Part shown: piece by piece, positions 4,805 to 15,301 of the stretch | Numbering within the stretch: position 1 is the first letter of the stretch | Layout: each line of letters starts with the position of its first letter | From: Terrabacter sp. Ter38 | GTDB taxonomy: Bacteria; Actinomycetota; Actinomycetes; Actinomycetales; Dermatophilaceae | DNA: 64,000 nucleotides | Assembly (NCBI RefSeq): GCF_024519435.1 | Contig: NZ_JALJRZ010000007.1 | Span: 124,001-188,000, forward strand | Reading direction: 5' to 3' | Notes under the pieces: generated by a model | The model's input: only the letters and a program-made list of their open reading frames with translations | Told to the model about the DNA's origin: nothing | Database searches by the model: none | Translations under genes and position numbers: made by a program

Positions 4805-4834
4805 TTGACGGGCTGCCCAGCGCCTTCGTAGTGT
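4805..4834 (+). promoter_or_regulatory. Promoter of the sulfur-salvage operon
   Basis: TTGACG (4805-4810), an 18-bp spacer and TAGTGT (4829-4834). The predicted start of transcription, near 4841, falls at the first base of the SAM-IV aptamer, which supports both calls. Confidence 0.7.
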
Positions 4835-4842
4835 CGTCGACA

Positions 4843-4956
4843 GGTCAAGAGTTCCAGCCTCAAGCCCCGGCTCGCTGGACAGCAACCCTCCACCGCGGCG
4901 GGGTGCTCCGGGTGAGGACCAGGCCGTCGCCAGCAGGCGACGGCAAGCGCGGGCTC
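4843..4956 (+). ncRNA. SAM-IV riboswitch
   Basis: The segment matches the actinobacterial SAM-IV aptamer in order: GGTC (closing with GACC at 4917-4920), the CAAGCCCCGGCTCGCTGG arm, the core GCAACCCTCCACCGCGG, GGGGTGCTCCGGGTGA, a perfect 8-bp hairpin (4924-4931 with 4936-4943), and the conserved tail CAAGCGCGGG. SAM-IV aptamers bind S-adenosylmethionine and normally switch off sulfur-amino-acid genes when SAM is plentiful. Only a leader peptide and the ABC/monooxygenase operon lie downstream, so that operon is the presumed target. Confidence 0.93.
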
Positions 4957-4988
4957 GACGTGGTCGGGTCCAGGACCGAGGAGCCGAC

Positions 4989-5072
4989 ATGGCGCGCACG
5001 ACGAGCACCCGCCTGGTGCTCCGCCGCCACGTCGACCTGCTCCGCGTGTCCAGCGCGCTCTGTCGTCCCTGA
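4989..5072 (+). CDS. 27-residue leader peptide of the sulfur-salvage operon
   Basis: A short gene lies 32 nt after the SAM-IV aptamer. It has a strong GAGGAG ribosome site 5 nt before the ATG and a TGA stop at 5070. Its C-terminal half reads RRHVDLLRVSSALCRP. This closely resembles the small putative leader peptides annotated upstream of sulfate, sulfite and cysteine genes in Streptomyces and relatives, with a basic segment, HVDL and a late cysteine. The single Cys is the third residue from the end, where a stalled ribosome could report Cys-tRNA supply. It is followed by 158 nt with potential hairpins before the permease start. A role in attenuation is inferred. Confidence 0.75.
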   Translation: MARTTSTRLVLRRHVDLLRVSSALCRP

Positions 5073-5175
5073 CGACGTCCTGGCCGCCGAGACCTCGGTC
5101 GGCCGGTCGGTGCCCGTGGCGCAGCGGTGACCCCGCAGCGCCCGGTCGCCAGCACGCACCCCCGCAGCCGCCGCC

Positions 5176-5205
5176 GCACCCTGCCACCCGTCCGGTGGCG
5201 GGTGC
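5176..5205 (+). promoter_or_regulatory. Hairpin just before the permease start (possible attenuator)
   Basis: GCACCC-T-GCCACC pairs with GGTGGC-GGGTGC (12 bp with one bulged T, 5-nt loop), ending about 15 nt before the AGGAG ribosome site. No U-tract follows, so translation control, Rho-dependent control or no role are all possible. Confidence 0.45.
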
Positions 5206-5230
5206 CGAGCCATCCTTCCAGGAGCCTCAC

Positions 5231-6316
5231 GTGCCATCCCTCTCCACGGTCCGGCGCTCAGCGCCGCCGACCACCACAGCGTCACCGTCCTCCTCGGCGC
5301 CTCCGGCCGCTGAGCCCACGCGGCCGCCGGCCGCGTCGATCTCCGCCACCTCGGCTGCCTCGGAGCCGGCAGCCCACTCGGTCCCGCTCTCCGGAGGCGG
5401 GGCCGTCCTCACCGTCGTCCCGCGGCGCAACCGCTGGACCTGGGTCGGCGTCGCCGGTGTCGGACTGCTCGTGGCGATGTTCGTCAACGGCCTCGTCACC
5501 AACCCCGGTTGGGACTGGCCCACCTTCGGTCGCTACTTCGCGACCGAGACGGTCGTCCGGGCCCTCGGCACGACGATCCAGCTCACGGTCCTCGGGACCG
5601 TGGCCGGCTTCGCCCTGGGGCTCGTCCTCGCGGCGATGCGTCTCTCGTCCAACGCGTTCCTGCGGACCGTGGCGTGGGCCTACATCTGGGCGTTCCGGTC
5701 GATCCCGCTCATCGTGCAGCTGCTCTTCTGGTTCAACATCGCCTACCTCTACCAGACCATCAGCGTCGGCGTCCCGTTCGGCCCGTCCTTCGCCAGCGTC
5801 GAGACCAACGACCTCCTCGGGGCCCTCGGCGCGGCCGTGCTCGGCCTCGCCCTGCACCAGGCGGCCTACGCGGCGGAGATCATCCGCGGAGGCATCCTCT
5901 CCGTCGACGAGGGGCAGCGCGAAGCGGCATCGGCGCTGGGCATCCCGCGGCGCCGTCAGCTCACGAGGATCGTGCTGCCGCAGGCGATGCGCTCGATCCT
6001 GCCCAACGCGGCCAACGAGGTGATCAGCCTCTTCAAGGGCACCTCGATCGTCTCGGTCCTCGCGATCCCGGAGCTCTTCTACCAGGTCCAGGTCATCTAC
6101 GGCCGCAACTCCCGGGTCGTGCCGCTGCTGCTCGTGGCGACCGTCTGGTACATCATCCTCACGACGCTCCTGTCCATCGGGCAGTACTACGTCGAGCGGC
6201 ACTTCGCCCGAGGCAGTGCGCGGTCCCTGCCGCCCACACCGCTCCAGCGGCTCCGGGCCCGGTGGGCCGGCATCGCGACCCAGGCAGCGCGACGTCCCGA
6301 GGCGGTCGGCCGGTGA
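5231..6316 (+). CDS. Amino-acid-type ABC transporter permease
   Basis: This 361-residue inner-membrane protein belongs to the HisM/GlnP/TcyL polar-amino-acid permease family. A Pro/Ala/Ser-rich cytoplasmic N-terminus of about 70 residues precedes the transmembrane helices. The EAA-like loop [20 protein letters not shown] contacts the ATPase. The GTG at 5231 is preceded by AGGAG at 7 nt. The stop codon overlaps the ATPase start (GTGA), so the two are translationally coupled. It is the only permease in the operon, implying a homodimeric channel. The upstream SAM-IV aptamer and leader peptide suggest import of a sulfur-bearing amino acid such as cystine, an S-substituted cysteine or an amino-sulfonate. 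The substrate itself cannot be read from the sequence. Confidence 0.9.
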
Positions 6317-7074
6317 CCGCCGCCGTCGACCTCCGCGGCGTCACGAAGTCGTTCGGGGCCCACCGGGTGCTCGACGACGTCGACCTCGAACTGGCCGAGG
6401 GCACCGTCACGGTCGTCCTCGGACCGTCGGGGTCGGGCAAGTCCACGCTGCTGCGCACCATCAACCACCTCGAGAAGATCGACCGGGGCCAGGTCCGGGT
6501 CAACGGCACGCTCATCGGCTACCGCCGGGTGGGCGACCGCCTGCACGAGCTGCCCGAGCGCGACATCCTGCGCCAGCGCAGCCGCATCGGCTTCGTCTTC
6601 CAGCAGTTCAACCTCTTCCCGCACCTCACCGTGCTCGAGAACGTCGTCGAGGCACCGGTGTCGGCGCAGCACCGCAAGCGCTCCGAGGTCGAGGTCGAGG
6701 CCAGGACGCTCCTGGAGCGAGTCGGTCTGGCGGACAAGGCTGCTGCCTACCCGCGCCAGCTCTCCGGTGGTCAGCAGCAGCGGGTCGCCATCGCCCGTGC
6801 CCTCGCGCTGCAGCCCGACGTCATCCTCTTCGACGAGCCGACCTCGGCCCTCGACCCCGAGCTCGTCGGCGAGGTCCTCGCCGTCATCAAGGAGCTGGCC
6901 CGCGACGGGGCCACTCTCGTCGTCGTGACGCACGAGGTCGGCTTCGCCCGCGAGGTCGCCGACACCGTCGTCTTCCTCGACGGCGGGCGCGTCGTCGAGC
7001 AGGGACCGCCCGAGCAGGTCATCGACCACCCCACCCACGAACGCACCCGAGCCTTCCTCGACCGCGTCCTCTGA
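6313..7074 (+). CDS. Amino-acid-type ABC transporter ATP-binding protein
   Basis: The 253-residue ATPase has Walker [10 protein letters not shown] (residues 37-45), the signature LSGGQQQR, Walker B VILFDEP, D-loop SALDP and switch His in [10 protein letters not shown]. It is of the GlnQ/TcyN type. A roughly 15-residue insertion ([20 protein letters not shown]) lies between Walker A and the Q-loop. It starts at a GTG overlapping the permease stop by 4 nt. It energises the importer made with the preceding permease and the two binding proteins that follow. Confidence 0.95.
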
Positions 7075-7153
7075 CGCCACCACCGACCACCCACACCCCA
7101 GGCCGCACCGGCCATCCATGACTCGCACCCTCCGGGTGCCGAGAGGAGTCCTC

Positions 7154-8158
7154 ATGCCCACACGTCCCCACGCCGTCCACCGCCCGACGACGTATGCCGT
7201 CACCGTCCTCGCGGTCGCCACCGCCGTCGCGCTCTCCGCCTGCTCCGGAGCAGCCGAGGCCAGCTCGGGCGGTCCGGCCGGCTCGACCGCGCAGGCGGGC
7301 CCGGCCGTCAACACCTCGCCGGACCAGAAGCGGATCACGGCCACCAAGGACGAGAAGGCCGCGGCCCTGCTGCCGGCGGCCGTCCGAGAGCGGGGCACCA
7401 TCACGGCCGCCAACGCCGGGGCGGGTGGGGGCACGCCTCCGCTGGTCTTCACGGCCGACGACGACAAGACCGTCATCGGCGTCGAGGTCGACCTCGCGCA
7501 CCTGTTCGCCGACAAGCTGGGACTCAGGGTCGAGACGCCGGCGACCAGCTGGGAGAACGTCTTCCTCGGCATCGACTCAGGTCGCTACGACGTCGCCCTG
7601 ACCAACGTCACGGTCACGGAGGAACGCAAGGAGAAGTACGACTTCGCCACGTACCGCAAGGACGACCTCGCCTTCGAGGCGCCCACGGGTGGCACCTGGA
7701 AGGTCACGAGCGGCAAGGACATCGCCGGCAAGACCATCGCCGTCGGTTCCGGCACCAACCAGGAGAAGATCCTGCTCGACTGGAACGAGGCCAACGTCGA
7801 GGCGGGCCTCGCGCCCGCCGAGGTGAAGTACTTCCAGTCGCAGACGGACTACTACCTGGCCCTGGCGTCGCACCGGATCGACGCGTACTTCGGACCGAAC
7901 CCGAGCGTCGCCTACCACGTCGCCACGGCCGGCCAGACCGAGGCCATCGGCCACTTCTCGGGCGCCGGTGACTCCCTCCAGGGACTCATCGCCGTGCTGA
8001 CGAAGAAGGGCTCCGGTCTCGCCGCGCCCTATGCCGCCGCCATCAACTCGGCGATCGCCGACGGCAGCTACGCGAAGGTGCTCCAGCGCTGGAACCTCAG
8101 CACAGAGGGCCTCGCGAAGTCCGAGATCAACCCGCCCGGCCTGCCCAAGACCGACTGA
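7154..8158 (+). CDS. ABC transporter substrate-binding lipoprotein 1 (SBP family 3)
   Basis: The 334-residue product begins with a lipoprotein signal peptide whose lipobox is ALSAC. The mature part is a family-3 periplasmic-binding fold (amino-acid type) with the motifs VIGVEVDLAHLFADKL, SGRYDVALTNVTVTEERKEK and DAYFGPNPS. AGGAG lies 8 nt before the ATG at 7154. An earlier in-frame ATG (7118) would place a basic stretch before the signal and lacks a ribosome site. The next gene encodes a clear paralogue, so the importer can probably take more than one ligand. Confidence 0.92.
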   Translation: MPTRPHAVHRPTTYAVTVLAVATAVALSACSGAAEASSGGPAGSTAQAGPAVNTSPDQKRITATKDEKAAALLPAAVRERGTITAANAGAGGGTPPLVFTADDDKTVIGVEVDLAHLFADKLGLRVETPATSWENVFLGIDSGRYDVALTNVTVTEERKEKYDFATYRKDDLAFEAPTGGTWKVTSGKDIAGKTIAVGSGTNQEKILLDWNEANVEAGLAPAEVKYFQSQTDYYLALASHRIDAYFGPNPSVAYHVATAGQTEAIGHFSGAGDSLQGLIAVLTKKGSGLAAPYAAAINSAIADGSYAKVLQRWNLSTEGLAKSEINPPGLPKTD

Positions 8159-8187
8159 GCCCCCCACGAACCAGGAGACGAATCGCC

Positions 8188-9219
8188 ATGCACCACAGCC
8201 AGACCCATGCACCTGCTCGTCGCCGGGCAGTCGTCGTCGCGACCGCCGTCCTGTCGACCGTCGGTGGGCTCGGAGCCTGCGCCGACCCGGTCGGCACCGG
8301 GACGACGCGGGTGGACCCCACGTCTCTCGGCGACTCGAAGGTCCTTCCGGTCTCCTTCGACACCTCGGCCCACGCGAAGCGCCCGGCGGGCACCCTGCAC
8401 CCGGAGATCGCCGCCACCCTGCCGGCCGACGTCAGGGCCAGGGGCACCCTGGTCATCGGCAGCGGCGGCTCCGGCGGCGGCATACCTCCTCTGGCGTTCA
8501 CGGCGGACGACAACAAGACCCCGATCGGGGTGGAGGTCGACGTGGCCCACCTCGTCGCGGACGTCCTCGGTCTCGCGCCCGACGTCCGGACGACGAGCTG
8601 GGAGAACCTCTTCATCGGCGTGGACTCGGGCACGTACCAGGTCGCGATCTCCAACGTCGGCGTCTCGGAGGAGCGCAAGGAGAAGTACGACTTCGCGACG
8701 TACCGGCTCGGGCTGCACGCGTTCGAGGCGAAGAAGGGCTCGACGCTCCACGTGCGGGGTCCTGCCGACATCGCGGGCCAGAAGGTGGCCGTCGGATCGG
8801 GCACCCTGCAGGAGGCGATCCTGCTGCGCTGGAACGAGGCGAACGAGAAGGCCGGCCGAGCACCGGCCGAGCTCGTCTACTACCAGGGCGCGACGGAGTA
8901 CTACCTCGCCCTCGACTCCGGACGCATCGACCTCTACCTCGGCCCGAACCCCACGGCGACGTACCACGTCGTCACGGCCGGGAAGACGCAGATCGTCGGC
9001 ACCGTGTCGTCGAGCTTCCCGATCCCCGGGAAGGTCGGGGTCCTGACGAAGAGGGGCAACGGCCTGGCCAAGCCCGTCTCCGACGCCATCAACGCCGCCA
9101 TCGCGGACGGCAGCTACGGCAAGGTCCTCGCGCGTTGGGGCCTGACCGCCGAGGCGGTCCCGGCCTCCGAGGTCAACCCCGCAGGGCTGCCCAAGCCGAC
9201 CGAGACCTCGGACCAGTGA
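8188..9219 (+). CDS. ABC transporter substrate-binding lipoprotein 2 (paralogue)
   Basis: This 343-residue lipoprotein (lipobox GLGAC) is the tandem paralogue of the preceding protein. Both share IPPLAFTADD/TPPLVFTADD, TSWEN, EERKEKYDFATYR and the closing INPPGLPK/VNPAGLPK. They differ in the signal peptide and several binding-cleft positions. AGGAGA precedes the ATG. Two binding proteins feeding one permease-ATPase is also the arrangement of the Bacillus tcyJ-tcyK cystine/S-substituted-cysteine importer. Divergence after duplication to bind different sulfur compounds is an inference. Confidence 0.92.
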   Translation: MHHSQTHAPARRRAVVVATAVLSTVGGLGACADPVGTGTTRVDPTSLGDSKVLPVSFDTSAHAKRPAGTLHPEIAATLPADVRARGTLVIGSGGSGGGIPPLAFTADDNKTPIGVEVDVAHLVADVLGLAPDVRTTSWENLFIGVDSGTYQVAISNVGVSEERKEKYDFATYRLGLHAFEAKKGSTLHVRGPADIAGQKVAVGSGTLQEAILLRWNEANEKAGRAPAELVYYQGATEYYLALDSGRIDLYLGPNPTATYHVVTAGKTQIVGTVSSSFPIPGKVGVLTKRGNGLAKPVSDAINAAIADGSYGKVLARWGLTAEAVPASEVNPAGLPKPTETSDQ

Positions 9220-9228
9220 GGGACTGAC

Positions 9229-10401
9229 ATGGCCACCATCGTCACCCTCGCCTCGAGCCCGTCCGCGGCGTCCCGCACGGACGCCGTCCTCGGCCACATC
9301 GAACGCCGCCTCACCGTGCGCGGTCACGTCGTCCAGCGTGTCGTCATCCGTGACCTGCCCGCTGAGGCGCTGCTGCGCGCCGACGTATCGGATCCGCGGA
9401 TCGCCGCGGTCGTCGCGCAGATCGACGCGGCGGACGCCGTCGTCGTCACGACCCCCGTCTACAAGGCGGCCTACACCGGACTGCTCAAGACGCTGCTCGA
9501 CGTGCTCCCGCAGTACGCGTTGCGTGGCAAGTCGGTGCTGCCCGTCGCCACCGGCGGCAGCGCGGCGCACGTCCTCGCCGTCGACTACGCGCTGCGCCCG
9601 GTCCTCGTGTCGCTCGGCGCCGAGCACGTCACCCAGGGCTGGTTCGTCCTGGCGTCCGACGTGCAGGTCTTCCCGTCCGACGGGGGCGTGCTGCTCTCGG
9701 AGGCCGCGTCCCGAGCCCTTCACCAGGTGACGGAGTCGTTCCTGTCGCACGTCGCACGGCACCGCCGCGACGAGTCGCCCGCCCTCGACGACGACGTCGT
9801 GCTGCGGGTGTCCCCGCACGACGACGTCGCGGCCCCGTTGCTCGAGGACCTCGTCGTCGAGTACGGCACGCGCTACGGCCTGTCGACGCCGCACACCCAG
9901 CTGACGGAGGTCCCGGTCAGCGACTTCGAGGGACCCCAGGGGGCGTTCGTCGTCATCCTCCGTGGCGGGCAGACGATCGCCGGCGGCGCGATCCGCCGCT
10001 ACGACGAGCAGACGGCCGAGGTGAAGCGGGTCTGGACCAACGCACAGTTCCGGCGGCAGGGCCTCGCCCGCCGCGTCCTGCTCGAGCTCGAGAAGGCCGC
10101 GGCGGCCCTGGGCTATCGGAGGATCCACCTCACCACGGGTCCGCGCCAGCCGGAGGCCCGTGCCCTCTACCTCGCGGCCGGCTACGTGCCGGCCTTCGAC
10201 CTGCACGGCGACCCGGAGTCGATCGGCCCACACGCCTTCGACAAGGAGCTGCCTGCCGGGACCGTCCGATCCGCCTCAGCCGCAGGGGTATCGGACCGCG
10301 CCATCGTGGATGGCGCTGCGGTCGCCGCGGCCGTCGGAGCGACCGCGGCGACGGTGGAGGCCGCGGGTCTGCGCTCCTACCCGGACTGGGGTGCGGCGTG
10401 A
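9229..10401 (+). CDS. Fusion: NAD(P)H-dependent FMN reductase (SsuE-like) + GNAT acetyltransferase
   Basis: Residues 1 to about 180 match the SsuE-type flavodoxin-fold FMN reductases (LASSPSAASRTDAVL at the N-terminus, TTPVYKAAYTGLLKTLLDVL, PVATGGSAAHVLAVDYALRP). Residues about 200-345 are a GNAT acetyltransferase, with the acetyl-CoA loop RRQGLARRVL near residue 275 and the late motif EARALYLAAGY. A further ~45 residues follow. The first half would supply reduced FMN to the SsuD-like monooxygenase three genes on. The second could acetylate the amino group of the imported compound. The frame is continuous with no sign of an assembly join, and the gene starts 9 nt after the preceding stop. GTGA overlap couples it to the next gene. 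Confidence 0.88.
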   Translation: MATIVTLASSPSAASRTDAVLGHIERRLTVRGHVVQRVVIRDLPAEALLRADVSDPRIAAVVAQIDAADAVVVTTPVYKAAYTGLLKTLLDVLPQYALRGKSVLPVATGGSAAHVLAVDYALRPVLVSLGAEHVTQGWFVLASDVQVFPSDGGVLLSEAASRALHQVTESFLSHVARHRRDESPALDDDVVLRVSPHDDVAAPLLEDLVVEYGTRYGLSTPHTQLTEVPVSDFEGPQGAFVVILRGGQTIAGGAIRRYDEQTAEVKRVWTNAQFRRQGLARRVLLELEKAAAALGYRRIHLTTGPRQPEARALYLAAGYVPAFDLHGDPESIGPHAFDKELPAGTVRSASAAGVSDRAIVDGAAVAAAVGATAATVEAAGLRSYPDWGAA

Positions 10402-12338
10402 CCGACCGACGGGTCATCGTCGTCGGCGCCGGACCACGTGCGCTGGGCCTCGTCGAGCGCATCGGCGCCAACGCCGGCGTGGTGGGCCGCCCGAGAGAGC
10501 GGGTGGAGGTGCACGTCGTGGACCCGCACCCGCCGGGCGGCGGCCGCATCTGGCGGTCGGCCCAGTCGCCCCTGCTCTGGATGAACTCCGAGGCGCAGGA
10601 CGTCACGGTCTTCACCGACGCGTCCGTCACCTGCGAAGGCCCGGTCGTGCCCGGGCCGTCCCTCGCCGAGTGGGCGGCCGGTCCGGACGCGAGCGCGGCC
10701 GCCTTGGCCCTGTCGGCGCGTGACTTCGCGCCGCGCGTCGTCCAGGCCGACTACCTCGAGTGGGCCTGGCGACGAGTCGTCTCGACCCTGCCGGAGCACG
10801 TCACCGTCCACGTCCATGCGGACCGGGCCGTCGAGCTGCACGGGGCCGACGCCGAGGGGGGTCACCAGCGGGTCACCCTCGCCCGTGGTGCGGTGCTCGA
10901 GGGCGACCTCGTCGTGCTCGCCCAGGGCTATCTCGACCAGGCGCCCGGGCCGGACGAGCAGCGGCTGCTCGACGAGGCAGCGTCACACGGGCTCACCTAC
11001 GTCCCGCCGGGTCACACGGCCGACCTCGACCTCGAGGGCCTGCGTCCGGGCGAGCCCGTCGTCGTCCGCGGCATGGGTCTGGCCTTCATCGACCTCGTCG
11101 TCCTCCTCGGCGAGGGCCGCGGCGGGACGTTCACCGGCGAGGGCACGCAGCTGACCTACCACCCGAGCGGGCGCGAGCCGGTCCTGCACGTCGGCTCCCG
11201 TCGTGGCGTGCCGTACCACGCCAAGCTCGGCTACGAGGTGCGAGCGCCCGCCTCCGGACCGGCCTCCCTGCGACACCTGACCCGTGAGCGCCTCACAGCC
11301 CTCGGCGGGGGCACTGCGGCCCTGGACTACCGCACCCAGGTCTGGCCACTCGTCGTGCTCGAGCTGGCGGTGGCGCACTACCGGCGGCTCTTCGAGGCCC
11401 ATCCCGAGCGGACCCGCGGCACCTTCGAGGCGCTCGAGCGCGCCCTGGTCACGGCCGACGCCACCAGCGGTGAGCTCGCAGCCGTCGCCCTGACGCACCT
11501 CGCGAACCCCGAGGACGTCTTCGACATCGAGCGGATCGACCGCCCTCTCCGCGCAGTCACCGACCACGCCACGCGGCCTGCCGACGTCGAGCGCGTCGTC
11601 GCCGAATACATCCGCCTCGACGTCGTCCGGCGCGCCGACCCGTCGCGGTCTAGCGACCGTGCCGTCTTCGACACGCTCCTCGGGGTGTATGCCGCCCTGG
11701 CGGAGCTCGTCGTCTCGGGGCGCCTCCTCGACGACGACCGGGTTCGCCACGTCGAGGGCCACTTCCACGGCCTCTTCTCGTTCCTCGCGAGCGGGCCGCC
11801 GCCTCGGCGACTCACCGAGCTGCTCGCGCTGCACCGAGCCGGCGTCGTCCGCTTCCTCGGCCCCGACCTCGAGCTCGGGATCGAGGACGGTGCCTTCGTC
11901 GGGAGGTCCGGAGACCGCGTGGTCCGGGCGCATGCCGCCGTGGACGCACGCCTGCCCCGCCCCGACAGCTCCCTCGTCACCGACCCCCTCGTCGCCGGGC
12001 TGCTGGCCCGGCGCGAGCTGCGCTCGCAACCCGCCATGGGCGCCGACGGAACAGCCCTCGGTGCGGGGCAGCTCGTCGCCGATCCCAGAGCGCGCGCCGT
12101 CCGCGCTGACGGCACCGTGCACCCCCGCCGGTACCTCCTCGGGCCCGCCGTGTCGGGCTCTGCCGGTGCTGGGGGCTTCTCCCGCCCTCGCTTCAACGGG
12201 CCCGGCTTCCGCCAGAACGACGCCGTCGCCCGCGACCTGCTCACCGTCGCCGTCAGCGACCGTGCCACCGCCCGCCTCCGACTTGCCCCGCCCGCAGTTC
12301 CGACCACGAGAGACAAGGACCACCGCCATGCCAGTTGA
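10398..12338 (+). CDS. FAD/NAD(P)-binding protein (NAD_binding_9 type)
   Basis: The 646-residue cytoplasmic protein opens with the dinucleotide-binding motif VIVVGAGPRALGLVERI. It has the family hallmark region PGGGRIWR...LLWMNSEAQDVTVFTD and a later GMGLAFIDLVVLLGEGRGG segment. These belong to the large FAD/NAD(P)-binding group (Pfam NAD_binding_9), which resembles N-hydroxylating monooxygenases. No member with a defined reaction is recognised here. It starts at a GTG overlapping the previous stop by 4 nt, and its end overlaps the monooxygenase gene by 11 nt. In this operon it may oxidise the imported sulfur compound or an intermediate. Confidence 0.8.
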   Translation: MTDRRVIVVGAGPRALGLVERIGANAGVVGRPRERVEVHVVDPHPPGGGRIWRSAQSPLLWMNSEAQDVTVFTDASVTCEGPVVPGPSLAEWAAGPDASAAALALSARDFAPRVVQADYLEWAWRRVVSTLPEHVTVHVHADRAVELHGADAEGGHQRVTLARGAVLEGDLVVLAQGYLDQAPGPDEQRLLDEAASHGLTYVPPGHTADLDLEGLRPGEPVVVRGMGLAFIDLVVLLGEGRGGTFTGEGTQLTYHPSGREPVLHVGSRRGVPYHAKLGYEVRAPASGPASLRHLTRERLTALGGGTAALDYRTQVWPLVVLELAVAHYRRLFEAHPERTRGTFEALERALVTADATSGELAAVALTHLANPEDVFDIERIDRPLRAVTDHATRPADVERVVAEYIRLDVVRRADPSRSSDRAVFDTLLGVYAALAELVVSGRLLDDDRVRHVEGHFHGLFSFLASGPPPRRLTELLALHRAGVVRFLGPDLELGIEDGAFVGRSGDRVVRAHAAVDARLPRPDSSLVTDPLVAGLLARRELRSQPAMGADGTALGAGQLVADPRARAVRADGTVHPRRYLLGPAVSGSAGAGGFSRPRFNGPGFRQNDAVARDLLTVAVSDRATARLRLAPPAVPTTRDKDHRHAS

Positions 12339-13464
12339 GTTCCTCGGCATCGCCGCCAACCACGACGGCACGGAGACGAGGGCCCGCAGCGCCGGCGCCC
12401 TCGACCTCCCGTATGCCGTCAAGCTCGCCCGAGCCCACGAGGACAACGGGTGGGACCGCGTCCTCTTCGCGTACCACTCCGGCTCGCCCGACCCCGCCCT
12501 GGTCGCCGCGCACGTGGCGGCCCACACCGAGCGGCTCAACCTCGTCGTGGCTCACCGGCCCAACACCGCCTACCCGACGCTGACGGCCAAGACCTTCGCC
12601 ACGCTCGACCACATCAGCACGGGCCGTTTCGAGGTCCACGTCATCACCGGCGGCAGCACCGCGGACCAGGCCGCCGAGGGTGACCACCTCGGCAAGGACG
12701 CGCGCTACGCCCGCACCCGGGAGTTCATCCAGATCCTCAAGCAGGCGTGGACGAGCGACGAGCCGTTCGACTTCGACGGTGAGCACTACCGGTTCGAGAA
12801 CTTCCTCGCTGACATCAAGCCGCTCCAGACCCCGCGCCCACGGATCTCTTTCGGCGGGTCGAGCCCGGCGGCATACGCCGTCGGGGCGCAGGAGGCGGAC
12901 GTCTTCGCGCTCTGGGGCGAGCCGCTCGCCGGGACGGCGGAGCAGATCGAGACGATCCGCGCCGCTGCCGCGGCAGCCGGGCGGCCTCTCCCGACGGTCC
13001 AGGTCGCCTTCCGACCGATCCTCGGCGCCACGGACGAGCTGGCCTGGGAGAAGGCCGAGCGCACGCTCGGCGACATCCGTGCGCACCAGGCCGCGGGCGA
13101 GTCCGCCTCGCGGGGCCGACTGCGCCGCAGCGGGTCCCAGCCCGAGAACGCAGGCTCGCAACGCCTGCTCGCGGCCGCGGAGGCGGGGGAGCGCCACGAC
13201 CGCGCCCTCTGGACCGCGACGTCCGCCGCGACCGGAGGCGGAGGCAACTCCACGGCCCTCGTCGGCACGCCCGAGACCGTCGCCGCGGCGCTGCTCGACT
13301 ACTACGACCTCGGGGTGCGGATCTTCTCGGCCCGGGGCTACCACCTCTACGACGACGCCGTGGACGTCGGGCGGCACGTCATCCCGCTCGTGCGCGAGGA
13401 GGTCGCGCGTCGGGAGGCAGCGACCGCCGCCACGACGCCGGCCGACCGCGAGGCCGTCGCATGA
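12328..13464 (+). CDS. LLM-class FMNH2-dependent monooxygenase, SsuD-like
   Basis: The 378-residue protein is collinear with alkanesulfonate monooxygenase SsuD (about 380 residues): the N-terminal FLGIAANHDGTE, LVVAHRPNTAYPTLTAKTFA, GRFEVHVITGGS, ISFGGSSPAAYAVG, LWGEPL, and the C-terminal TALVGTPETVAAALLDYYDL and GYHLYDDAVDVG. SsuD-type enzymes use reduced FMN and O2 to cleave C-S bonds. Related enzymes (YtnJ, YxeK) act on N-acetylated S-substituted cysteines. The reductase half of the gene three steps upstream is the likely FMNH2 source. The ATG is inside the preceding gene, with AAGGA upstream. Whether the substrate is a sulfonate or a thioether is open. Confidence 0.9.
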   Translation: MPVEFLGIAANHDGTETRARSAGALDLPYAVKLARAHEDNGWDRVLFAYHSGSPDPALVAAHVAAHTERLNLVVAHRPNTAYPTLTAKTFATLDHISTGRFEVHVITGGSTADQAAEGDHLGKDARYARTREFIQILKQAWTSDEPFDFDGEHYRFENFLADIKPLQTPRPRISFGGSSPAAYAVGAQEADVFALWGEPLAGTAEQIETIRAAAAAAGRPLPTVQVAFRPILGATDELAWEKAERTLGDIRAHQAAGESASRGRLRRSGSQPENAGSQRLLAAAEAGERHDRALWTATSAATGGGGNSTALVGTPETVAAALLDYYDLGVRIFSARGYHLYDDAVDVGRHVIPLVREEVARREAATAATTPADREAVA

Positions 13465-14231
13465 GCACCCGGGACGAGTGGCTCGCGTGGCGTGCTGCTC
13501 GCGAGCGCGATCTCGCGAAGGAGCACGGCTGGCTCTCGCTGACCGGCTTCGCCTGGCTGCCGGACCGCCGGACGAGCCTGCCCGGCCTGCCGGGCCGGTG
13601 GTGGGCCGACGGCTCGGGTGCGAACGTCGAAGCGACCGCGAGCGAGGGCCTGAGCATCGACGGCGAGCCCATCGCCGGGTGGGCCTCTGCGGACGTCGAG
13701 GAGGCAGGGTCGCGGCTGTGGGTGCGGCACGGCGAGCGCATCGTCGAGCTGCTCCGGAGGGGAGGCCGGCTCGCGGTGCGTACCCGAGACCCGCGGGCCA
13801 CGACGCGCCAGAAGTTCGACGGCGTGCCGACGTGGGAGCACGATCCGGACTGGGTGCGCCCGGGACGGTTCACGGCCGCAGACCCCCCGGCGCGGGTGGA
13901 GGTGCGCTCCGCCCGTCATGACCTCGTCCAGCACACCACGGTCGTCGGCACCGTCGACGTCGACATCGACGGTGTGCGGCACCGTCTCAGCGCGGTCGGC
14001 GCAGGAGAGGGCCTCGGACTCCTCTTCCACGACGCGACGAACGGCTCGCTCTCGGCGCCCTGGCGCACCGTCACGACGTCGCCCCCGGACCTCGACGGCA
14101 ACGTCGTCGTCGACTTCAACCGGGCCGTCAACCTCCCGTTCGCCTTCACCGCGTACGGCACGTGTCCGGGACCGGTGACGGGCAACCGGATCGCCGTGCC
14201 CGTCACTGCCGGTGAGAAGCGCCCGGCGTGA
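13461..14231 (+). CDS. DUF1684 family protein
   Basis: The 256-residue protein fits the DUF1684 family: HGWLSLTGFAWLPD near the N-terminus and the hallmark DFNRAVNLPFAFTAYGTC then NRIAVPVTAGEK at the end. No enzyme activity is established for the family as far as I know. The ATG overlaps the monooxygenase stop (ATGA), so it is translationally coupled and probably works in the same pathway. A missing step is removal of the acetyl group, but there is no motif evidence that this protein does it. It is the last gene before a 107-bp gap. Confidence 0.85.
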   Translation: MSTRDEWLAWRAARERDLAKEHGWLSLTGFAWLPDRRTSLPGLPGRWWADGSGANVEATASEGLSIDGEPIAGWASADVEEAGSRLWVRHGERIVELLRRGGRLAVRTRDPRATTRQKFDGVPTWEHDPDWVRPGRFTAADPPARVEVRSARHDLVQHTTVVGTVDVDIDGVRHRLSAVGAGEGLGLLFHDATNGSLSAPWRTVTTSPPDLDGNVVVDFNRAVNLPFAFTAYGTCPGPVTGNRIAVPVTAGEKRPA

Positions 14232-14338: not shown

Positions 14339-15301
14339 GTGCAGTCATCGGTGACCCAGCCCCAGAGCGCCACGCCCGGGTCCGGGGGACCCCCGCCCGA
14401 GGTGGGGCCACCCCCGCGACGGTCGAGCGGTCGGGCGTGGGAGTGGTCGCTCGCGGCCCTCCTGCTGCTGCCCAACCTCCTGCTGCTCATCGTCTTCACG
14501 TACCGTCCGCTGCTCGACAACATCAGGCTGTCGTTCACCGACTGGAACATCTCCTCGCCCATCGCCAACCCCGTGGGCCTGTCGAACTACATCGAGTGGT
14601 TCGGCCGTGACGACACGAAGATCATCGTGCGCAACACGCTCGTCTTCACCATCGCCACGGTCGGCATCTCGATGGCGGTCGGGCTCGGTCTCGCGCTGCT
14701 GCTGGACCAGAAGCTCAGGGGGCGCAACCTCGTCCGCTCCATCGTCTTCGCGCCCTTCGTCATCTCCGGCGCGGCCATCGGCATCGCGTTCCAGTTCGTC
14801 TTCGACCCGCAGTTCGGCCTCGTCCGTGACCTGCTCGCGCGGATCGGGGTCGCCTCGCCGGACTTCTACCAGGAGCCCGGCTGGGCGCTGTTCATGGTGA
14901 CCGTCACCTACATCTGGAAGAACCTCGGCTACACCTTCGTCATCTACCTGGCCGCGCTGCAGGGCCGGCGCGCCGACCTCGACGAGGCGGCCGAGATCGA
15001 CGGCGCCACGGCGTGGACGCGCTTTCGTCGCGTCCTGATGCCCCAGCTGCGCCCGACGACGTTCTTCCTGTCGATCACGGTGCTGCTCAGCTCGGTCCAG
15101 GTCTTCGACATCATCAACGTCATGACACGTGGCGGTCCGCAGGGCAACGGCACGACCACGCTCGTCTACCAGGTCTACCAGGAGACGTTCGTCAACCAGC
15201 GCGCCGGCTACGGTGCCACCGTCGCCACCATCATGTTCGTCATCCTGCTCGTCGTCACGGTCGTCCAGGTGCGCTTCATGGACAGGGGGAAGCAGGCATG
15301 A
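14339..15301 (+). CDS. ugpA: Glycerol-3-phosphate-type ABC transporter permease UgpA
   Basis: This 320-residue permease of the carbohydrate-1 family (MalF/UgpA side) has a Pro/Gly-rich N-terminal tail and about six transmembrane helices. Its EAA loop is LDEAAEIDGATAWTRFRRVL. Motifs YRPLLDNIRLSFTDWN and TRGGPQGNGTTTLVYQVYQ are typical of UgpA-like proteins. The start is a GTG in a leaderless position. The UgpA assignment rests on context: ugpE, ugpB, ugpC and a glycerophosphodiesterase follow in order. By itself the protein could serve another sugar. ATGA overlap couples it to ugpE. Confidence 0.85.
   Translation: MQSSVTQPQSATPGSGGPPPEVGPPPRRSSGRAWEWSLAALLLLPNLLLLIVFTYRPLLDNIRLSFTDWNISSPIANPVGLSNYIEWFGRDDTKIIVRNTLVFTIATVGISMAVGLGLALLLDQKLRGRNLVRSIVFAPFVISGAAIGIAFQFVFDPQFGLVRDLLARIGVASPDFYQEPGWALFMVTVTYIWKNLGYTFVIYLAALQGRRADLDEAAEIDGATAWTRFRRVLMPQLRPTTFFLSITVLLSSVQVFDIINVMTRGGPQGNGTTTLVYQVYQETFVNQRAGYGATVATIMFVILLVVTVVQVRFMDRGKQA

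Follow-up and report, generated by a model that had tools for sequence, protein, structure and literature searches.

The ytm operon of Bacillus subtilis encodes a tcy-type importer with two binding proteins. In the sulfur-oxidation pairs formed by SfnB or DszC with DszA or SfnG, two flavin oxygenases act in series: the SfnB/DszC-type protein oxidises the sulfur, and a luciferase-type enzyme then cuts the C-S bond. Salvage through CmoO and CmoJ is described as beginning with acetylation and sulfoxidation, followed by C-S cleavage that gives a sulfenic acid, which is then reduced and deacetylated (PMC10863075), while the B. subtilis scm (yxe) cluster for S-(2-succino)cysteine is reported to have one flavin mononucleotide (FMN)-dependent monooxygenase, ScmK, and a clustered deacetylase, ScmP (PMC12757645). 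Here, we analyse an operon in a 64,000-nucleotide stretch of the Terrabacter sp. Ter38 genome (contig NZ_JALJRZ010000007.1, positions 124,001 to 188,000; hereafter, the window), in which positions 4843-14231 of the forward strand hold a SAM-IV riboswitch aptamer, a leader open reading frame (ORF) and eight co-directed genes. The reading that we favour, and hold tentatively, is that this operon serves to recover sulfur from N-blocked cysteine thioethers, first by oxygenating the sulfur and then by cutting the C-S bond with a luciferase-type enzyme. Among the matches listed in a search of the open-licence PubMed Central literature, we recognised no paper treating this operon.

Relation to the Bacillus clusters and proposed route

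An earlier note, made from the sequence alone, had listed an aptamer, a leader, an importer, a reductase fused to an acetyltransferase of the GNAT type, a flavin adenine dinucleotide (FAD) protein, a monooxygenase and a DUF1684 protein, all of which were recovered by Rfam, Pfam and NCBIfam scans (Table 1). The operon resembles the ytm/ytn (cmo) genes of B. subtilis in its tcy-type importer, GNAT, flavin-reductase-dependent monooxygenase and sulfur control; however, it lacks both a CmoJ-type enzyme and a linked M20 deacetylase, and it carries instead a FAD-dependent class B enzyme, a DUF1684 protein and binding proteins with a changed amino-group site. With scm it shares a GNAT and an FMN monooxygenase and would share the acetylate-cleave logic, but it does not have the clustered deacetylase. 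The operon would work like cmo and scm but, for want of an NtaA-type monooxygenase and a linked M20 deacetylase, is not a member of either by its enzymes.

Comparisons below draw on 20 operon-type loci (the window, L008-L012, L014-L016, L018 and L052-L061), many of which are close kin and thus not independent; neighbourhood counts rest on a codon-usage gene caller. An amino-acid permease is present in 17 of these loci and an orthologue of the luciferase-like protein (at least 64 % identity) in 10. By contrast, 10 loci with a more distant FAD relative (L062-L071) returned no permease, DUF1684 or luciferase-like orthologue at E 1e-6, and only one weak GNAT match (32 %) and one weak ATPase match (38 %). 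Among named relatives, a Terrabacter and a Terracoccus strain come closest at this locus (93 % identity in the FAD protein), and L012-L018 are Streptomyces loci. As the genome searches score few candidates per genome, occurrence counts are lower bounds: the FAD gene is present in at least 8 of 149 genomes of the family, any FAD relative in at least 18 of 396 genomes of the phylum and the luciferase-like protein (E ≤ 1e-60) in at least 6 of those 396.

Four loci (L015, L016, L056 and L058) combine FAD, permease, ATPase and DUF1684 genes with a longer luciferase-like gene. The product of the L015 gene, the only one scanned, passes the NtaA/DmoA model TIGR03860 (340.8 vs cut-off 279.7), and its best matches in the PDB are B. 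subtilis YtnJ, which we take to be CmoJ, and 'MoxC' (E 1.5e-62). The earlier description of the operon as an actinobacterial counterpart of the Bacillus clusters with different enzymes gains from this YtnJ-like enzyme; the import-acetylate-oxidise order that came with it is not supported, as the residue predicted to bind a free α-ammonium is missing from the binding proteins.

From the computed anatomy, regulatory elements, family relationships, residue replacements and neighbourhood conservation, we infer a ligand class and a role for each enzyme. Low S-adenosylmethionine (SAM), sensed by the SAM-IV element, and probably low Cys-tRNA, sensed by the leader peptide, would permit expression, and the TcyJLN-like ATP-binding cassette (ABC) importer with its two binding lipoproteins would import an N-blocked, mercapturate-like compound. 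The FAD/NADPH enzyme, a putative substrate-switched relative of aspartate N-hydroxylases, would then oxygenate the thioether sulfur, and the luciferase-like enzyme, given FMNH2 by the SsuE domain, would cut the C-S bond of the resulting sulfoxide or sulfone. The GNAT domain might acetylate free S-substituted cysteines arising in the cell and so bring them into the same route, the DUF1684 protein, by way of its invariant cysteine, may act on the sulfenic product as reductant or carrier. Release of cysteine may fall to an M20 deacetylase encoded elsewhere. The wider proposal that the aspartate N-hydroxylase family holds an unrecognised sulfur-regulated branch, switched from nitrogen to sulfur, supplied with N-blocked thioethers by a cystine-type importer without its former amino-group ligand, and paired with a new SsuD-like subfamily and a DUF1684 thiol relay, strikes us as possible but rather doubtful.

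If correct, the favoured reading would give a function to a FAD branch now annotated, like its plasmid-borne relatives, as 'FAD/NAD(P)-binding protein', to a luciferase-like subfamily easily named alkanesulfonate monooxygenase (as one Neorhizobium record does) and possibly to DUF1684. It would also show how such blocked thioethers in soil are exploited by actinobacteria and perhaps by rhizobia that carry related enzymes.

Binding lipoproteins and the imported ligand

The tcy-type importer proposed earlier is supported by 30-52 % identity to E. coli TcyJLN (permease 40 % to TcyL, ATPase 52 % to TcyN, lipoproteins 30 and 33 % to TcyJ). None of the importer proteins reaches the NCBIfam equivalog cut-offs for TcyJLN, the two lipoproteins scoring 90.1 and 92.3 bits against the TcyJ cut-off of 312, and the best NCBIfam model of the permease, the cystine permease PRK15100, is likewise matched below its cut-off.

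The two lipoproteins are paralogues (59 % identity over 282 residues) and both have Pro at the position of GlnBP Asp157, which we take to be the residue holding the ligand α-ammonium; Arg75 is kept in both, and lipoprotein 2 has Gly at the position of Thr70. In GlnBP, Gly68, Thr70 and Arg75 are described as holding the ligand α group, with Asp157 and Gly119 added in the closed state (PMC7400645). Among 28 binding proteins, two from the window and 26 from related loci, position 157 is Pro in 20 and Thr in eight, and Arg75 is retained in all 28. E. coli TcyJ, GlnBP and AncQR all have Asp at this position, as do four of the five other SBP_bac_3 proteins of the genome, the fifth (a partial family match) having Glu. 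Pairwise alignments returned Pro for the window lipoproteins in three of four comparisons, with a gap in that of lipoprotein 1 with AncQR, and Thr, Ser, Pro and Pro for two other operon-type binding proteins; three control proteins from the same genome gave Asp in six of six. The AlphaFold model of lipoprotein 1 (pLDDT, the predicted local distance difference test, 85) has an ordinary amino-acid-binding-protein fold, with an engineered GlnBP as the top Foldseek match. Since Asp157 is replaced while Arg75 is kept, the ligand is probably a carboxylate lacking a free α-ammonium, such as an N-acyl S-substituted cysteine.

These residues bear directly on whether free S-substituted cysteines might instead be imported, acetylated by the GNAT and then oxidised and cleaved as in Bacillus ytm/yxe (cmo/scm). 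Such a scheme would suit the TcyJLN-like importer and the fusion of the GNAT to a flavin reductase, and the scm, yha and ytn clusters are reported to share this enzyme logic, with acetylation crucial to it (PMC12757645). However, all 28 binding proteins lack the Asp that contacts the GlnBP ligand and is present in TcyJ, which disfavours import followed by acetylation; moreover, no GNAT was detected in 10 of the 20 operon-type loci, and the operon has no M20 deacetylase. We consider this scheme unlikely.

Read strictly, the binding-site signature indicates a carboxylate without a free α-ammonium and nothing narrower, so that another N-less or N-substituted sulfur acid (e.g. a thio-keto acid, a betaine such as ergothioneine, or a thiazolidine) might be taken up and oxidised for carbon or sulfur. 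In other bacteria, relatives of the luciferase-like protein do lie beside other ABC transporters; the one binding protein scanned there is of the peptide/nickel type, and other such loci have a single permease. The GNAT and the TcyJLN-like importer nevertheless suit cysteine derivatives better, and we regard compounds of these other kinds as improbable substrates.

Two further observations concern the binding proteins. Among NCBIfam models, both also hit the kinase model StpK7 MSMEG_1200 in its C-terminal half (positions 290-599), with E 6.6e-24 for lipoprotein 1 and 6.1e-32 for lipoprotein 2 and with scores well short of the cut-off. In L055, L058 and L084, two permeases and two types of binding protein, with GPxP or MSTI at the 157 site, surround one FAD or luciferase-like gene.

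The two monooxygenases

The FAD protein aligns across residues 6-618 with the Streptomyces L-aspartate N-hydroxylase 8cp2 (phmmer E 7.5e-91), an enzyme of the FzmM type in which Arg13, Arg266, Arg276, Arg409, Arg412, Asn413, Arg416 and Arg577 are described as surrounding aspartate or sulfate ions and Trp51 and Asn62 as flavin-site residues (PMC10404684). In a residue table, all 22 operon-type FAD proteins retain Trp51 and Asn62, and none retains R266, R276, R409, R412, N413 or R416. The window protein has K, P, L, Y, A and A at these six positions; across the 22 rows, 266 is Lys, 276 is Pro except for one row with Ala, 409 is Leu, 412 is Tyr or Phe, 413 is Ala, Gly or Met and 416 is never Arg. 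Arg13 is kept in 21 rows, and Arg577 in all 21 that reach that far. Eight of the 11 other rows (8cp2, L062-L066, L068 and L071) retain all six residues of the cluster; L069 and L070 deviate among them at 413 only, and L067 is mixed. A branch with 100/100 support, recovered in every one of 200 bootstrap trees, separates the 20 operon-type proteins from the other rows of a 31-row tree.

The operon branch thus resembles the FzmM type in full-length homology and flavin site but lacks its aspartate Arg/Asn cluster and sits in an operon for transport and sulfur metabolism. The branch has the look of a monooxygenase whose flavin site is intact and whose substrate is a different one, probably less acidic. 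We rejected a true aspartate N-hydroxylase as an identity for the window protein, the aspartate-binding cluster being replaced in 22 of 22. The earlier note had left this protein open, as one that might supply a new step; it can now be placed among the aspartate N-hydroxylases by family, though its substrate site is replaced. By analogy, it would perform S- rather than N-oxygenation, because SfnB/DszC-type sulfur oxidation precedes luciferase-type C-S cleavage.

Alternatively, the FAD protein may still N-hydroxylate an amino acid or amine, with N-oxidation, alone or together with acylation by the GNAT, driving loss of a β-sulfur substituent. Its homology to an N-hydroxylase over the full length and its flavin-site residues would fit this, and the fusion of FAD protein and GNAT in L061 and the adjacency of their genes in L060 recall the N-hydroxylase/acetyltransferase pairs of hydroxamate siderophore systems. 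With the aspartate-recognition cluster gone, an importer that appears not to favour a free amino group and a flavin-reductase-dependent luciferase-like enzyme left unexplained, we find N-hydroxylation improbable.

The luciferase-like protein (P0007) has SsuD and MsuD as its closest relatives in the PDB (32-34 % identity) and, like them, belongs to the luciferase-like family and has an SsuE-type partner. It falls short of both the SsuD model TIGR03565 (205 vs cut-off 518) and TIGR03860, the model of the CmoJ/ScmK type (93.9 vs 279.7). In MsuD, each of the single Ala variants at W195, R225 and R296 is reported to yield no measurable sulfite (PMC8234197). P0007 keeps the Trp of this motif, but R225 is replaced by Ala and R296 by Thr; this pattern, together with replacement of H227, holds in 10 of 10 orthologues. 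In wider relatives, comprising eight annotated plasmid regions (from Rhizobium, Shinella, Agrobacterium, Paracoccus, Bradyrhizobium, Pantoea and Pseudonocardia), Embleya and Streptomyces replicons, L083 and L084, position 225 is occupied by Ala, Thr or Ser and position 296 by Thr or Ser. By contrast, an SsuD-like control (L095_09) retains both Arg residues, and a distant protein (L085_09, 37 %) keeps R225 but not R296.

These replacements weaken the alternative already raised in the earlier note, namely uptake of a sulfonate (taurine, cysteate or an alkanesulfonate) from which the SsuD-like enzyme and its SsuE partner would release sulfite. The SsuE domain, scoring over its cut-off, and the proximity to SsuD/MsuD would agree with such a route, as would a sulfite-dehydrogenase-like molybdoenzyme encoded close to FAD or luciferase-like genes in two Streptomyces-type loci (L055, 7617-8909, and L057, 2393-3682; models below cut-off) and an SsuA-like binding protein in L057. 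However, both arginines essential in MsuD are lost from all 10 orthologues, TIGR03565 is missed by a wide margin, and the binding proteins of the operon are of family 3 and not of the SsuA type, making desulfonation very improbable here.

The neighbours of P0007-like genes bear on the S-oxygenase role proposed for the FAD protein. Matches to P0007 at E ≤ 1e-60 occur in 137 plasmid records, rhizobial and other, the motif having been checked in those fetched. In eight of eight annotated regions hand-chosen from the 137 (L093, L094, L096 and L098-L102; four are from Rhizobiaceae with one gene order), a gene of the acyl-CoA-dehydrogenase family adjoins the P0007-like gene, and ABC transporter genes lie nearby. 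The one such neighbour scanned scored below the cut-off of the SfnB model (91.8 vs 430.9). Of the unannotated regions, L095 has a gene of this family and L097 does not. The luciferase-like relative beside an SfnB-like protein is reminiscent of the SfnB/DszC-DszA/SfnG arrangement of two flavin oxygenases in series, from which the window differs: a FAD class B enzyme takes the position of the acyl-CoA-dehydrogenase-family protein. The two flavoproteins might be alternative oxygenase partners of the luciferase-like enzyme.

An extra luciferase-type gene, with a CE1758 family model as its best match (below cut-off), follows the operon in L008 (13852-14889) and L054 (6789-7844) and is absent in the window.

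Accessory proteins, control and gene layout

A GNAT was found in the other 10 operon-type loci. It forms one protein with the FMN reductase in L054 and in loci of the window type and with the FAD protein in L061, associations that favour the proposed route, and is free-standing in L055, L057 and L060. The nearest PDB matches of the domain are generic, with no specific relative, and related GNATs also occur in genomes with no detected FAD homologue.

DUF1684 genes are present in 14 of the 20 operon-type loci and in 87 genomes of the 396-genome sample. Seven operon-type genomes were sampled (G000, G156, G254, G275, G307, G392 and G514, by the FAD residue table); in five, the DUF1684 gene lies inside the fetched stretch, in four of these as the only copy reported, and in G275 and G392 it lies elsewhere in the genome. 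An alignment of 12 sequences has one invariant Cys (Cys235). A Cx7C motif is reported for a Haloferax member of the family (PMC9426492) and is present in six of the 12; the window protein lacks it, having the second Cys only. Foldseek (E ≤ 0.001) returned six chains of four uncharacterised entries, the same as those given by the sequence search, and hence no function from the fold. The thiol-relay role, which would build on the invariant Cys and the Cx7C report, is the weakest part of our proposal.

As noted previously, the operon has no N-deacetylase: a Pfam scan of its eight proteins detected no M20 deacetylase or other deacetylase family. The suggestion that one may be encoded elsewhere is supported by two M20 amidohydrolase genes over the TIGR01891 cut-off in other parts of the genome. 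Given these two genes and the three redundant N-acetylcysteine deacetylases described for B. subtilis (PMC12757645), an unlinked deacetylase is no serious objection.

Several points nevertheless count against sulfur salvage from N-blocked thioethers. Another residue could compensate for the lost Asp157, and the 28 binding proteins and 22 FAD proteins include close kin, making fewer independent cases. Nitrogen, and not sulfur, is the atom oxidised by the closest characterised relative of the FAD enzyme. A GNAT is odd if the ligand is already N-acylated, and half of the operon-type loci have none detected; DUF1684 is absent from the stretch in six of the 20, and the missing M20 deacetylase belongs here too. 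The 20 kb fetched for L083 and for L084 hold a luciferase-like orthologue but lack a FAD gene of the operon type, while the molybdoenzyme of L055 and L057 points to sulfite rather than cysteine as the product there.

Sulfur control, as claimed earlier, is supported by the recurrence of both leader elements. The SAM-IV aptamer is the sole Rfam match in the window at the gathering threshold and one of seven SAM-IV elements in the 4.83-Mb genome. The pattern [RHLK]H[VIL][DE][LM]...C matches the leader MARTTSTRLVLRRHVDLLRVSSALCRP alone among 513 short ORFs of the window; this leader has a single Cys codon, near its stop. A SAM-IV element of at least 98 bits precedes the operon in all eight Intrasporangiaceae loci found (the window, L008-L011 and L052-L054) and is followed in each by a leader ORF of the same pattern, ending in ...HVDLLRVSSALCRP, ...HIDLMRIASASCC, ...HIDLMRVCAGSC or ...HIDLLQVASDLCR. 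Among the 19 locus stretches scanned, SAM-IV is thus present in seven (L008-L011 and L052-L054) and absent from 12 (L012, L014-L016, L018 and L055-L061).

The 'putative leader peptide' model NF042934 (actinobacterial cis_reg_atten), applied to the window leader only, was passed (Table 1), whereas the Cys-rich leader families Ms4527A and Ms5788A were not (27.7 and 17.6 vs cut-off 45). Folding of the stretch that separates the aptamer from the start codon of the leader gave, at each of the eight loci, energies no more than about one standard deviation away from those of simply shuffled letters. Candidate cysteine leader peptides without conserved terminators are described in actinobacteria (PMC1262725). 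Dual control by SAM-IV and a leader peptide is likely, and its direction would be expression at low SAM and low Cys-tRNA. Such a two-sensor RNA leader is an object for study in its own right.

The genes had been described as mostly overlapping, which holds for four of the seven junctions; the other three have gaps of 79, 29 and 9 bases. The next gene, a binding-protein-dependent transport permease at 14339, starts 107 bases downstream and is taken as a separate unit.

Table 1. Features of the operon, with positions in the window and supporting model or search results
Feature	Position	Strand	Evidence
SAM-IV riboswitch aptamer	4843-4955	+	cmscan RF00634, 110.9 bits, E 1.3e-19, gathering score 38
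Leader peptide MARTTSTRLVLRRHVDLLRVSSALCRP	4989-5072	+	NF042934, 32.1 bits vs cut-off 27
Polar-amino-acid ABC permease, TcyL-like	5231-6316 (N-terminal start uncertain)	+	PF00528, TIGR01726 over cut-off
ABC ATPase, TcyN-like	6313-7074	+	PF00005; TcyN model 313.7 bits vs cut-off 406
Solute-binding lipoprotein 1	7154-8158	+	PF00497
Solute-binding lipoprotein 2	8188-9219	+	PF00497
SsuE-type NADPH:FMN reductase-GNAT fusion	9229-10401	+	TIGR03567, 195.6 bits vs cut-off 164.05; PF00583 over cut-off
FAD/NAD(P)-dependent class B monooxygenase, aspartate N-hydroxylase family	10398-12338	+	PF13454; phmmer to 8cp2
SsuD-like luciferase-type FMN monooxygenase (P0007)	12328-13464	+	PF00296; TIGR03565, 205 bits vs cut-off 518
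DUF1684 protein	13461-14231	+	PF07920, 109.5 bits

Similar leaders occur beyond the operon. In the same genome, a second SAM-IV element with a RRHVDLSRVSSALCRG leader lies upstream of a cysteine-dioxygenase-type gene (L072, 12777-13025 and 12099-12665, both on the minus strand), and in L057 a leader peptide, MIDGMKRQDLTRRRHVDLARVSSSCCRCRV (1681-1773), lies upstream of another luciferase-like gene. Genes following two further SAM-IV elements (L004 and L005) resemble, by eye and without a family scan, those for O-acetylhomoserine sulfhydrylase and homoserine acetyltransferase.

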